DNA from: an uncultured Acidobacteriia bacterium
Lineage (GTDB): Bacteria > Acidobacteriota > Terriglobia > Bryobacterales > Bryobacteraceae
DNA length: 64,000 bases
Assembly (NCBI GenBank): GCA_903929755.1
Contig: CAIYVZ010000185.1
Span: 1 to 64,000, forward strand
Direction of reading: 5' to 3'
In this document: positions 8,913-14,341 of the stretch, in pieces
Layout: each line of letters opens with the position of its first letter
Numbering within the stretch: position 1 is the stretch's first letter
The notes under the pieces: generated by a model
Told to the model about the DNA's origin: nothing
Seen by the model: the letters and a program-made list of their open reading frames with translations, nothing else
Database searches by the model: none
Translations under genes and position numbers: made by a program

Positions 8913-9479
8913 CTATTTCATCCCTTCAGGTTTCTTGCCCGAAAGCGCGGCGACCACGCGTTCGGAGATCTGGTCAATCAGCGCCGGCATGGCGGCGTCA
9001 AGCGCCACCGTGACAGCCGCGCGAATCTGCTCGGGGTCCAGCACGGTTACCGAACGGGGTTGCAGGGGAGCCTTCGGCGGCGCCGGAGTGCCCTCGCTGT
9101 CACGCTTCCGGGAAGACCGACGTGCCCCGCTAACGAAGCGCCCGATGGAGGCCAGCAGCAGGCTTGCTTCGAACGGCTTTTTCAGGATCCCGTCCGCACG
9201 AACACGGTCCACTTCCTGCTCGTCGATCGGTTCTACCGCGCCAGCCGTCAAAATCACCGGCATCCCGCCATGGCGTTTCACGTACTCACAAAGCTCATAG
9301 CCCGTAACCTCCGGCATAGAAATATCAGCGATAATCAGGTCCGGTGAAGCGTCCTCAAGACGCAACATCGCTACTCTGCCGTCGCTTACCGTGATGACTT
9401 CGTGGCCTTCATCGCGCAGGATGCGCTCCCCCATGCGCTGCGCATGGGGGCTGTCATCAGCCAAAAGAATGCGGCTCAT
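8913..9479 (-). CDS. Response regulator receiver protein without DNA-binding domain
   Basis: The REC domain spans residues 1-118, with acidic residues Asp8-Asp9, phosphoacceptor Asp52 (IIADISMP), Thr78 and Lys100. After it comes a Lys/Arg/Pro-rich linker and a short helical tail (about 145-185), not a known output domain. It may act by protein contacts, as in chemotaxis-like or twitching systems; no partner kinase lies nearby. Its ATG overlaps the bamD stop (ATGA at 9476-9479), so translation is coupled to bamD. Confidence 0.85.
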   Translation of the reverse strand: MSRILLADDSPHAQRMGERILRDEGHEVITVSDGRVAMLRLEDASPDLIIADISMPEVTGYELCEYVKRHGGMPVILTAGAVEPIDEQEVDRVRADGILKKPFEASLLLASIGRFVSGARRSSRKRDSEGTPAPPKAPLQPRSVTVLDPEQIRAAVTVALDAAMPALIDQISERVVAALSGKKPEGMK

Positions 9480-10858
9480 TGCTGGGGTTTTGCCGGTTCG
9501 GGCGTGGCAGCAGGAGTCGTGGCAGCGGCCGGAGTGGCAGCAGCGGCGGGAACACCTTTTTTCGAAGCACTCCTGGCAACCTTGGCGGCCTTCGACGCGG
9601 CCTTCTTCTGCAGCGCTTCGTATTCCTTGATCTGCTTTGCCGTAGCCGGGTGATTCGTTGGCGGGACAATCTGCTCCGCGCCACCCTTCGCCGCCGACTC
9701 GCCGTTCGCACCCAGGCTGGCCTTGTTCTCACCAGTGCCCTGCGCGGCCGGCCCCACAACGCCGTTCTGTGAGCTCAACCGGGCGTCCTTCGCCTGATCC
9801 AGTTCTTTGGTATCGCCGACGACACCGCCAACCACATCGCTGACACCACTAGCCCCGCCAGCCGCCGTCTGCGGCACGCTGACAGGCACCACAGGCCGGA
9901 TGCCCTGCATGGCAGGCGCGCCCATCTTCGCGGCAAATGATGTATCGGGCTTGCCAGATACCATTCCAAATGCCCTGCTCACAAAACCGGGCTTCTTCAG
10001 ATTTTCCAACTCAAACTTCATCCGGGAGTAAGCGGCAGGGTCGGACTGGGGAATCGGCCGCTTCATCGCAGTCAGGCGCTCTTTGGCGCTGTCCACACGA
10101 TCGCTGAGAGGATAATCCTTCACGATCTTCGAAAGCGCGGCGGCTTCCTGATTCTCGAACCGATCACCCATCTTGCGGTACGCATCCGCCAGGAGCCACA
10201 AAGCTTCATCGGAACCGCTGTACAACGGATATTGCGCCGTCACGTACTCCAGACGGCTGGCAGCGGCGGGAAAGCTTCCCTTGTGGTGATAGAAATCACC
10301 GGCCCGGTATTCTTTGTCGGCCAGAACTTCCTGGGTATTCCGCAGCAACTGCTCGGCCGGCTTCGCAAACTTGGAATTCGGGAACTGCACCAGAACCTGA
10401 CGGCATTCATCTTCGGCCCGAATGCCCTGGCTCGAATCGCGATCCGGCTTATCCATCTGCTTGTAGTGGATGTTGCAGACCTTGTATTGCGACTCCGCCG
10501 ACTCCTCCATGTTCGGGTAGAACAGGATGAAATCCTTATATTCTGCTTCGGCCTGCGCCAGACCATGCGCGCCGCCCTCGCGATACCAGCTGTCCGCAAT
10601 GGCGAGTTTCGCCTTCGCCAGAAATTCACTGGTGTCGTAGGTGTTGATCATCGTGTTGAGCGTCAGGCGGGCAACTTCATAGTTGCCCTTCTCCACGTTG
10701 CGGATCGCGCGGTCATAAAGGACCTTGTCGGGCTGCAGCGTGTCCTTCGTGATCGGATTTTCGTACTTCTTCCGCCGGAACGGGAAGCCGAAGCCGCAGA
10801 AGAGCAGGACGGCGAGCGAACTCGCAAGAACTACGAAAAATGGATGGCGTCTTTGCAT
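9476..10858 (-). CDS. bamD: Outer membrane assembly factor BamD-like protein
   Basis: The protein is 460 residues from the preferred start MQRRHPFFVVLASS; a TTG at 10888 would add ten. A hydrophobic leader ends at LLFCGFG, a poor lipobox (Phe at -1) but with a Cys that could be acylated. TPR-like repeats follow (VLYDRAIRNVEKGNY, AEAEYKDFILFYP, QYKVCNIHYKQMD, RAGDFYHHKGSF), as in BamD, which helps insert beta-barrel proteins. The C-terminal 150 residues, rich in Ala, Pro and Lys, are an extension not found in E. coli BamD (about 245 residues). Confidence 0.85.
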   Translation of the reverse strand: MQRRHPFFVVLASSLAVLLFCGFGFPFRRKKYENPITKDTLQPDKVLYDRAIRNVEKGNYEVARLTLNTMINTYDTSEFLAKAKLAIADSWYREGGAHGLAQAEAEYKDFILFYPNMEESAESQYKVCNIHYKQMDKPDRDSSQGIRAEDECRQVLVQFPNSKFAKPAEQLLRNTQEVLADKEYRAGDFYHHKGSFPAAASRLEYVTAQYPLYSGSDEALWLLADAYRKMGDRFENQEAAALSKIVKDYPLSDRVDSAKERLTAMKRPIPQSDPAAYSRMKFELENLKKPGFVSRAFGMVSGKPDTSFAAKMGAPAMQGIRPVVPVSVPQTAAGGASGVSDVVGGVVGDTKELDQAKDARLSSQNGVVGPAAQGTGENKASLGANGESAAKGGAEQIVPPTNHPATAKQIKEYEALQKKAASKAAKVARSASKKGVPAAAATPAAATTPAATPEPAKPQQ

Positions 10859-10892
10859 CTTTGAACCGTTTCGTCCCCTCAAACCCAAACTT

Positions 10893-11570
10893 TCAAACCC
10901 GAATTGTCCCAGCAGCCCGCTCAGCGAGCTGTTGCATTTCTTTCACGGTTGCGGCCGGATCGGCACTATGGAAGACCGAAGATCCAGCCACCAGCCAGTC
11001 ACAACCCGCCTCGACTATACTTTCCAGATTATCGCGGCCCACTCCGCCATCGATCTCGATCGCAAAGTCCAGCCCCTTTTCCGCCCGGATCCGCGCCAGT
11101 TGCCGGATCTTATTGAGCGAGTGCGGAATGAACTTCTGGCCGCCAAACCCGGGGTTCACACTCATTACCAGCACGAAATCGGCCAAATGGAGAACGTCTT
11201 CCAGCACACTCACTGGTGTTCCCGGATTCAGCACAACGCCAGCCTTTGCGCCCAGACCCCGAATCAGCCGCAGGGTCCTGTCCAGATGCCGCGCCGCTTC
11301 ATAATGCACCGAAACCTGATCGGCACCGGCCTGAATAAAAACGGGCGCATAGGTGTCGGGGTCCGTGATCATCAGATGCACATCCAGCACCGATTTCGTG
11401 ATCTTCCGAAGCGATTCCACCACCGGTGGCCCCATCGTAATATTGGGCACAAAATGCCCGTCCATCACGTCCACATGAAGCATGGACGCTCCACCGCGCT
11501 CCACCGTCGCAATGTCGGTTCCAAGCCGGGAAAAGTCGGCAGCGAGCAGGGATGGAAGGATGTGGACCAA
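10893..11570 (-). CDS. rpe: Ribulose-phosphate 3-epimerase
   Basis: The 225-residue TIM barrel interconverts ribulose 5-phosphate and xylulose 5-phosphate in the pentose phosphate pathway. Recognisable motifs are HVDVMDGHFVPNI, LDVHLMI, VMSVNPGFGGQKF and EIDGGVG, which include the metal-binding His/Asp residues. The start is TTG (rc of 11568-11570). It precedes bamD by 34 bases. Together with tal (3 kb upstream on the same strand) it covers the non-oxidative branch. Confidence 0.95.
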   Translation of the reverse strand: MVHILPSLLAADFSRLGTDIATVERGGASMLHVDVMDGHFVPNITMGPPVVESLRKITKSVLDVHLMITDPDTYAPVFIQAGADQVSVHYEAARHLDRTLRLIRGLGAKAGVVLNPGTPVSVLEDVLHLADFVLVMSVNPGFGGQKFIPHSLNKIRQLARIRAEKGLDFAIEIDGGVGRDNLESIVEAGCDWLVAGSSVFHSADPAATVKEMQQLAERAAGTIRV

Positions 11571-11601
11571 AACTCGATTTTACCACGCTTCGGGAAAGCG
11601 G

Positions 11602-13155
11602 CTATTTCCTTCGCACCGTCGGCTCGAACTGGTTCTGCGGCAAAATGCATCCGGCCTGCTTGCAGTCATGCTGCCCCGCAACTTTTTCGCCGTTCGCGAT
11701 CAGTTCATCAATGTGTTTCAGAGAGAAATCGAGAATGCCCGGAACTCCCCCCAGAACCTGCTTATCGGGGTGGTAGCGGTGCACGGTAACTTCCCGGTAG
11801 AAGTCGTCTGAATGCTGTCTCCGGACAATTCCGGCAAGTCGGTTGCCCAGCTTCACCCTGGCCAGTTCCGAGGAAACCCCCGAGGCAACCGCCGTCGCCA
11901 GTGATCGCTCCAGGGTGTCAAGTGTGCTGTTCACCGGACTCAGCGTTAAGGTGTTGACGTCCGGGTTCAGGCAAATCAGGTGGACGACAGTCGCTCCGGC
12001 ATCAATAGCCGGATTGAGAGGCGAATTCATGACCAGGCCACCATCCACGTAGAGACGCTTCTCCCGACCGCCACCCGGCTTATCCGCTTCTACTTCCACA
12101 GGCGCGAACAAACCCGGAATAGCTGTCGACGCCATCACGCAATCCCTGAAGTTCGATTCGCGCATCAGTTCTTCATGCGGCAAGACGGAACTGCCATGCC
12201 CAAACAGCCGCACGGTTCCCGCTTCCCAGTCGGTAGCGGCAATCTGGAGCCGGCAGGGTGACTTCTGCAACGCCTGCCAGCTCAGCGTCTCCTCGAGCAA
12301 TTCACGCAGCGGTTCTGCAGAAATCAGCGAGCTTATGTCCACCGATTCCAGCAACCGCGAGAGTTCGGGGGGCACAGATTTACTTACGTAAGCAAGCCTC
12401 TTCAGAAGGTCGGCAGCCAGAAATGCCGAATCCCGAGGGGCCGCTCTGAGCGATGCCAGACTCAGGACATCGCCCCGGACACGAAAAACTCCGTTATTGT
12501 GGATTCCGCCGGCAATCTTCTTTCGCCACACATTGACCAGCCCCTCGGCGATTTCCGGCAGTGTCCTGTACGAATCGGAAATCGCACATGCCAGCCACGC
12601 CGCATTGAAAGCTCCAACCGAAGTCCCGGTCAGCACCGAGGGTCGCAAGCTGTTCAGGCCCGTGTCCGAGCCGTGCACCGAAGCCGCAAGCTTACGCAGT
12701 ACCCCCAACTCGAACGCACCGTAGGCACCGCCGCCCGACAACACAATGCCATGACTTTCCGGCAGTTTATTCACTTGGACGGCCATCACAATCAGGCCAT
12801 CCGGACCGCGATAAGCCGCAAAAGTGCCAAAATCTCCAACCGTGGGTTCCTGCACCACTTCTGTGCCATTCTTTTTCGCGGCGGCATGAAAGGTGGCCAA
12901 ATCCGCCACTTCGAAGCTGGGGTAGCCCCGGCCGGATTCCACGCCGGCAACAACATCTTTAGCGCTGTCGTTCACCAGCAGGAGGGTGGTGCCGTGAAGA
13001 GCCAGCGCGGTGGCGATTCCGGCAAGCTTCCCTGCGGGAACCGAGGCGGGAAATCGTCCTGTTTGCAAGTGCAGGTTCTGTGTAAAAAAATCCGCGGCTG
13101 TACTGTGGTCCTTCACAAAGACCACGAAATATGGGAGGCGATCACGCGTAATCAT
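11602..13155 (-). CDS. Glyoxalase/VOC-like domain fused to patatin-like phospholipase
   Basis: This 517-residue protein has two parts. Residues about 7-128 form a VOC/glyoxalase-like domain (YFVVFVKDHSTAADFFTQ to FAAYRGPDGLIVMAVQV). From residue 136 there is a patatin lipase: oxyanion loop GGGAYG (141-146), nucleophile GTSVG with Ser179, and the DGG with Asp371. All catalytic dyad residues are present, so acyl hydrolase activity is likely. It has no signal peptide and is probably cytoplasmic or membrane-associated. The VOC half lacks an obvious full metal-ligand set and may be a sensor or structural part (inference). It lies between rpe and rsmB on the same strand. Confidence 0.85.
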   Translation of the reverse strand: MITRDRLPYFVVFVKDHSTAADFFTQNLHLQTGRFPASVPAGKLAGIATALALHGTTLLLVNDSAKDVVAGVESGRGYPSFEVADLATFHAAAKKNGTEVVQEPTVGDFGTFAAYRGPDGLIVMAVQVNKLPESHGIVLSGGGAYGAFELGVLRKLAASVHGSDTGLNSLRPSVLTGTSVGAFNAAWLACAISDSYRTLPEIAEGLVNVWRKKIAGGIHNNGVFRVRGDVLSLASLRAAPRDSAFLAADLLKRLAYVSKSVPPELSRLLESVDISSLISAEPLRELLEETLSWQALQKSPCRLQIAATDWEAGTVRLFGHGSSVLPHEELMRESNFRDCVMASTAIPGLFAPVEVEADKPGGGREKRLYVDGGLVMNSPLNPAIDAGATVVHLICLNPDVNTLTLSPVNSTLDTLERSLATAVASGVSSELARVKLGNRLAGIVRRQHSDDFYREVTVHRYHPDKQVLGGVPGILDFSLKHIDELIANGEKVAGQHDCKQAGCILPQNQFEPTVRRK

Positions 13156-13207
13156 GACCCTGGGATTGTGGCATGATTACGCGAAACTTGTCAAAGCGAC
13201 TTTTGGT

Positions 13208-14341
13208 TTACCCGCAAATTACCGCGGCAAAAAAACCATCGCCCGGGTCCCTGCCCGGAAGTCGACGCAAAGTCTCCGCTACCGCGTAGCCGCAGTTGCC
13301 AACCACATCGTCGTTTTCTTCCCGTTCGAGCGAGCAGGTTGAGTACACCAGACGCCCGCCAGGCGCCAACAGGGCCAGCGCGTTGCCCAGAATGGCCTTC
13401 TGGCGATTTTGCAGGTCCGCAAGATCCTCGGGCTTCAGGCGCCACTTGATTTCCGGATTGCGTGAAAGCGTACCGGTCCCGGTACACGGGGCATCCACTA
13501 AAATCCGGTCAAATTTCACCGAAAATGGAAGGGGTGCCCTCGCATCCGCCACCACAACCGGAATACCCAGTTGCAACAGCCCGTGCGCACGTGAAGGATG
13601 GAGCTCACAGGCAACCGCCCGAACCGGAGTTTCAAGCGCCTGCGCCGTCTTGTTGCCAGGCGCGGCACAAACATCCAGAAAACGCTGCCCCGGTTCCAGC
13701 TTCAGCAGCGGAACAACAGCCTGCGAACCAATATCCTGAAAGCGAAATGCCTTCGGATCGCCCGAGGGTAACTCATGGCAACCAAACACGTCTGTTGCAA
13801 TAGCCCCGGGCGGAGGCGGCGCACCACCTGTTCGAATGTAGCGCCGTGGCGGAGCCAGACTCGCCGCCACAATGGCCGCCGTGGTCTCCACCCCAAACTC
13901 TTTCCGCCATCGCTCCAGCAGCCACGCCGGCGTAGCTGCTTCATCCGGCGCGGTAATCACCTGCCGCATCACTCCACGCAGAATCGCGTTCACGAAACCT
14001 GCAGCCGACGCCTTCCCTGCCCTGCGCGCCAATTCAACAGCGTCGTTCACCACCGCATGATCCGGCACGCGGTCCAGGAAGATACACTGATATACCGCCA
14101 TTTCCAGAACGATGCGCACTTCCACGTCCAGCCTCGCAATGGGTCGTGTGGAGCAGGCTCCCGCGATCGCATCCAGCTGTCCCCTGCGCCGCAGTGTGCC
14201 GAAAACGATATCGGACGCCAGCCCCGCATCTCTGGCATCCAGCTGCACGGACTTAGACGCCAGCGCTTCAGCCGACCACGCTCCGCGCTCTACCGCCAGC
14301 AGCGCCGCGTACGCTGCCTGTCTTGCCGCCGCCAGCTTCAG
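13208..14341 (-). CDS. rsmB: 16S rRNA (cytosine-C5)-methyltransferase RsmB
   Basis: The N-terminal NusB-like RNA-binding region (for example [14 protein letters not shown]) is followed by a Rossmann methyltransferase with motif [13 protein letters not shown], motif IV DAPC (Cys286) and motif VI STCS (Cys336), the two cysteines typical of RNA m5C enzymes. The first ATG/GTG/TTG in frame is GTG at 14248, but the upstream 31 codons read like a normal RsmB start ([16 protein letters not shown]). I therefore propose CTG at 14341, which overlaps the tal stop in a CTGA arrangement and gives 377 residues. E. coli RsmB is 429. Confidence 0.85.

Follow-up and report, generated by a model that had tools for sequence, protein, structure and literature searches.

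The VOC-Patatin Gene and Its Surroundings

The stretch of DNA analysed here (the window; 64,000 nucleotides of a contig from an uncultured member of the Bryobacteraceae) carries on its minus strand a gene in which a VOC (glyoxalase-fold) domain precedes a patatin domain. The gene occupies 11602..13155, stop codon included, as a single open frame, 517 codons long from its ATG start, exactly the frame given by the first-pass annotation. In the 517-aa product, assigned from the open reading frame list and Pfam, residues 1–129 (12769..13155) form the VOC domain and residues 130–134 (12754..12768) a short linker, placed between the model strands 122–128 and 135–139. The patatin domain, delimited by Pfam, fold matches and conserved columns, covers residues 133–505 (11641..12759) and ends in a family-specific C-terminal tail (11641..11781). 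The upstream neighbour, 52 nt away on the same strand, is rsmB (16S rRNA methyltransferase; 13208..14248), while rpe (ribulose-phosphate 3-epimerase; 10893..11570) follows 31 nt downstream, also on the minus strand, and is itself followed by a bamD-like (YfiO) gene recognised by Pfam (9476..10888, minus strand). These neighbours are housekeeping genes and point to no ligand.

Identity and Predicted Structure of the VOC Domain

In the window protein the Pfam family Glyoxalase (PF00903) matches residues 6–121 with an E-value of 1.5e-4 and 22.6 bits, just over the cut-off of 20.6. This weak score is strengthened by its relatives, since in a set of five fused proteins that contains the window's own, four match the same family (threshold E 0.1; lowest E 1.1e-11), and since a profile built on the VOC domains of six fused proteins hits VOC proteins of solved structure, with 5uhj as the best (E 8.5e-7). 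Together with the profile score over its cut-off, the strands and helices of two paired modules at residues 9–62 and 80–128 place the domain in the VOC superfamily. The first-pass annotation had proposed a VOC-like fold of about 120 residues joined directly to a patatin; Pfam, the profile and the predicted structure agree with this, apart from a linker of about five residues, and they rule out that the N-terminal part is an ordinary patatin extension.

The structure was predicted from 23 aligned sequences, only five of which cover the VOC part, and replaced an earlier, poor model from five sequences (pLDDT 61.4). The mean pLDDT is 80.1 and the pTM 0.77, with the VOC part less sure than the rest and values below 50 at residues 1–7, 36–43 and 72–76. 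In the model a β-α-β-β-β module occurs twice within residues 9–128, and because the strand 135–139 opens the patatin fold, only about five residues remain as a link, all of them outside the low-confidence stretches. Fold searches with Foldseek and VIA-align matched residues ~130–500 to CapE (9ioq, Z 25.6), PlpD (5fya, Z 25.5), patatin (1oxw, Z 25.0) and CapV (9kej, Z 25.0), and residues ~1–130 to TioX (3itw, Z 14.0), TnmS1 (5umq, Z 13.2), GloA2 (4mts, Z 13.0), TnmS3 (Z about 13–14) and GloA (Z 12.3). Since the VOC scores differ so little, binding and metal VOCs cannot be told apart by fold.

A separation can be sought at the residues that would hold the metal, which the first-pass annotation had proposed to examine. 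Escherichia coli GloA carries H5, E56, H74 and E122, which we take to be the glyoxalase I metal ligands, and these letters were confirmed at those positions in the K-12 genome. They align with Y9, L59, Y78 and M124 of the window protein, and the four positions read YLYM, YLYL, YLST, YLYM, FVSQ and WRVV across the six fused domains. Thus, none of the four positions holds a histidine or glutamate in any of the six, and the glyoxalase I metal site is absent from all of them. This makes it unlikely that the fused domain works as a metal enzyme of glyoxalase I type; probably the front part serves in binding or dimerisation rather than as a second metalloenzyme. The first position is aromatic (Y, F or W) in all six domains, which would suit a hydrophobic pocket. 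The closest free-standing VOC protein found in 41 genomes searched (genome G037, locus L134; 65.1 bits) reads C, A, Q and S at the ligand positions; a second was found in G243 (L182; 43.4 bits). A mixed alignment that included the free VOC rows misplaced them and was discarded.

The Patatin Domain and Its Family

The patatin family (PF01734) is matched at residues 137–384 with an E-value of 3.8e-26 (92.9 bits against a cut-off of 27.7), as it is throughout the same set of five fused proteins. The glycine-rich anion loop (SGGGAYG, residues 140–146, with the GGG at 141–143), the nucleophile elbow (GTSVG, 177–181, Ser179) and the aspartate motif (DGG, 371–373, Asp371) are present letter for letter as first annotated, so that the GGG loop, the GxSxG serine and the DG[A/G] aspartate are complete. 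The anion loop of patatins is written GGGx[K/R]G in PMC9095652; the window protein differs from this form in its fifth residue, a tyrosine, and does not keep the basic residue. Ser179 and Asp371 occur in every fused protein, with one in each piece of a gene that is split in genome G008. His459, His496, Cys498 and Cys503 of the C-terminal tail are invariant in all 23 aligned family rows, including two proteins (L031 and L033) that have lost both Ser179 and Asp371; metal binding or a disulphide is a possible role of this tail.

The family also comprises stand-alone patatins (e.g. L006, L022, L040, L043 and L046), which across 17 rows are 32–39% identical to the window protein and are mostly from Acidobacteriota (nine of the 11 loci L040–L050, going by their titles). 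Except for L031 and L033, they share the GGG, GxSxG and DGG motifs with the window protein, and the His/Cys tail is invariant. In contrast to the window protein, they yielded no VOC domain, and their neighbours differ where examined. One stand-alone member (L006:16-2673:+, G007) is preceded, 24 nt before its start, by an acyltransferase-domain gene (PF01553), a hint of lipid remodelling. Three others (L046:124-11174, L044:6206-11166 and L042:5410-10248) lie, according to Pfam and rough gene calls, beside GMC oxidoreductase, FAD halogenase-like, RPE65-like, kelch and FG-GAP genes, as well as genes weakly resembling the GDSL family, a setting that may represent a gene cluster for lipids or pigments.

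Four paralogues of the same family have lost both the catalytic serine and the DGG aspartate, namely L002:1486-2655:- in the window's own genome (G000:C93; GSGFG in place of the serine motif), L031:877-2016:- and L033:1218-2354:+ (both GTGAG), and L028:1480-2625:+ (GSGAG). By their motifs these are likely pseudo-lipases, and L002, L031 and L033 retain the His/Cys tail. At a further locus (L034:1438-3695:-, G244:C168) two patatins lie directly side by side, one with GGG and DGG and one in which a motif scan found neither, a possible enzyme/pseudoenzyme pair.

Distribution and History of the Fusion

Among 257 genomes of the order, 14 match the window protein at an E-value of 1e-20 and six carry the fusion. 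The carriers belong to two genera of one family, four in the first (the window's own genome, G003, G008 and G016) and two in the second (G242 and G243), and the same six were recovered among 237 genomes of the family. In 396 genomes drawn evenly across the phylum four matches were obtained at the same threshold, and only the window's own covers the VOC part. A scan of an 84,980-species collection with two peptide patterns, in which the N-terminal stretches were examined at 19 of 70 loci and which a fusion with another patatin subfamily could escape, returned 70 relatives, five of them with the VOC part (L035–L039), the same five relatives as before. No relative was found among 53 pattern-matching stretches from a single-protein scan of genome contigs or among 120 stretches from viral contigs, and each of the 82 plasmid records matched stays below 60% identity and short of 80% coverage of the query. 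Apart from the fused genes and one locus with a free VOC gene (L008), a profile scan of patatin loci (E up to 10) found just two VOC genes, and none at L040–L050, stand-alone members with at most 5 kb on each side. These two (L066:8337-8738, E 2.4e-6, and L102:6687-7064, E 0.011) lie 3.1 kb and 1.4 kb, respectively, from matches to distant Bacteroidaceae/Alistipes patatins and look by eye like metal-type VOCs.

In a tree of the 23 patatin parts the six fused rows form one clade (branch support 100/99; 100% of 200 bootstrap trees), and the VOC part is present in the gene of every row of that clade; a single fusion event therefore suffices. Besides the window, four genomes from the two genera have the gene as a continuous frame with the same junction. 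The remaining copy, in G008, falls into two frames, which part where the DNA has a run of C; this reflects either decay of the gene or a mistake in the assembly.

The gap between rsmB and rpe (11571–13207 in the window) holds the fusion gene in the window's own genome, G003 and G008, members of a genus of 19 genomes; in G016 the gene likewise lies between rsmB and rpe, with ~3.4 kb separating it from rpe. Thus, the fusion follows rsmB in four of the 19 genomes. It was not found in the other 15, of which six have rsmB directly beside rpe (34–108 nt between aligned ends), two have another gene in the gap and seven have no rsmB within the stretch examined. The two other genes appear by eye to encode a zinc-type or quinone-type dehydrogenase (L168) and a short-chain dehydrogenase (L177). 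The gap is an insertion spot in this genus, because its contents vary by species between the VOC-patatin gene, two kinds of putative dehydrogenase or nothing. In the second genus the surroundings of the fusion gene differ from those in the first. That 15 of the 19 genomes yielded no fusion makes the task of the protein look dispensable.

Pairwise pN/pS values, which are rough because dS is near or at saturation, are 0.37 for the VOC and 0.26 for the patatin domain between the window's genome and G003, 0.54 and 0.47 between the window's genome and G016, and 0.49 and 0.45 between G003 and G016. Both domains seem to be under constraint, the VOC domain less than the patatin. In the second genus the VOC domain is just 27–34% identical, and this, together with its faster change, makes a poor fit to one fixed ligand.

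A Possible Ligand-Responsive Lipase

The first-pass annotation holds as an overall interpretation insofar as the gene does encode a genuine fusion of VOC and patatin in which the patatin motifs are complete, and it is refined by the absent glyoxalase I metal site, which makes binding or dimerisation by the VOC domain likelier than catalysis. The reading that we favour, tentatively and at somewhat less than an even chance, is that of a patatin-type lipid acyl hydrolase whose metal-less VOC domain binds a small molecule, dimerises and sets the lipase activity. According to the tree, the fusion would have arisen once, in the Bryobacterales, when a patatin of a mostly acidobacterial family acquired a VOC domain lacking the glyoxalase I metal site. 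Given its motifs and fold, the Ser179–Asp371 dyad with the GGG oxyanion loop would hydrolyse phospholipid or another acyl lipid, and the VOC pocket, where relatives keep their metal, would hold a small molecule of mainly hydrophobic or aromatic character. Single-domain VOC proteins usually dimerise, with the pocket at the interface; a homodimer is therefore proposed, in which the VOC parts would pair and the state of the dimer would set the activity of both patatin domains. The sharper version of this proposal, in which the VOC domain is a built-in sensor and a ligand at the dimer interface switches phospholipid cleavage, is at present doubtful. There is precedent for regulated patatins: CapV, a bacterial patatin, is activated by bound cGAMP (PMC6401482; PMC9095652) and patatin-like phospholipase activity is reported as highly regulated (PMC9095652), while for the VOC side a possible drug-sequestering role of TnmS proteins is described in PMC6804068.

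Several other explanations were weighed against the ligand-responsive lipase. The VOC domain could be a structural or dimerising add-on, or a part that docks a partner, and sense nothing. The missing glyoxalase I metal site, the rapid divergence of the domain and the housekeeping neighbours, which offer no sensing context, would all fit, whereas the retention of the VOC domain in every row of the fused clade and the aromatic first ligand position in six of six domains speak against it; this is unlikely, although it deserves to be kept in view. Alternatively, the pocket might capture an acylated or aromatic substrate and present it to the patatin site, making the protein an esterase of narrow specificity. 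Compound-binding VOCs are among the fold matches and the linker is very short, but no pathway genes adjoin, and this explanation has a small chance of being correct.

A bifunctional enzyme, whose VOC domain would have metal-dependent lyase, isomerase or dioxygenase activity of its own, is suggested by the Pfam name and by GloA and GloA2 among the fold matches; with no histidine or glutamate at the glyoxalase I ligand positions in any fused domain it is very improbable, and a metal-dependent second enzyme was rejected on that ground. A CapV-like effector of CBASS anti-phage defence, activated by a cyclic nucleotide, would agree with matches to the PADLOC phospholipase effector models (best 50.6 bits) and with CapE and CapV among the top fold matches. 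However, the protein scores 40.6 bits with the NCBIfam model CBASS_lipase against a cut-off of 200, its gene neighbours are housekeeping genes, and no SMODS nucleotidyltransferase match was obtained in the window's genome (97.9% complete), whereas the same search matched three of 14 control genomes, including E. coli. Because of the score far under the cut-off and the lack of a SMODS match this reading fails, was rejected and is rated as extremely improbable. That the gene is chimeric or decayed rather than coding for one protein, as the two frames in G008 might suggest, is scarcely credible given continuous frames and the same junction in the window and four other genomes of two genera, and a chimera was rejected for the window.

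If the ligand-responsive lipase is real, it would constitute a one-gene switch from ligand to lipase that is easily tested and re-usable as a sensor, and it would mean that VOC domains can act as regulators; if the VOC domain merely dimerises, it is an ordinary accessory domain. No description of a VOC-patatin pairing was found in the open papers searched, in agreement with the first-pass annotation, which knew of no characterised example. Both domains are of well-known kinds, and the ligand-switched VOC-lipase architecture is not described for either family in the literature searched.

Comparison With Known Patatin and VOC Systems

Among solved structures the best sequence match is PlpD of Pseudomonas aeruginosa (E 1.9e-7), with which the patatin fold is shared (Z 25.5). 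PlpD is secreted and carries a barrel of its own, whereas the window protein has an N-terminal VOC domain. E. coli GloA has the VOC fold in common (Z 12.3), but its H5, E56, H74 and E122 are all unkept in the window protein. VOC proteins of the Ble, TioX and TnmS type, among them TioX, TnmS1 and TnmS3, are not known to use a metal and bind their ligand at the dimer interface. The compound-binding TioX, TnmS1 and TnmS3 share the VOC fold (Z about 13–14) without being singled out by score, and they stand alone, while the VOC domain of the window protein is fused to an enzyme domain. CapV and CapE, patatins under the control of cyclic nucleotides, which we take to be without a VOC domain, share the patatin fold (Z 25.0 and 25.6) and the idea of a switched lipase, although the window protein lies far under the CBASS model cut-off. 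The logic proposed here thus resembles the ligand switch of CapV, with the difference that the sensor of the window protein would be an added N-terminal domain.
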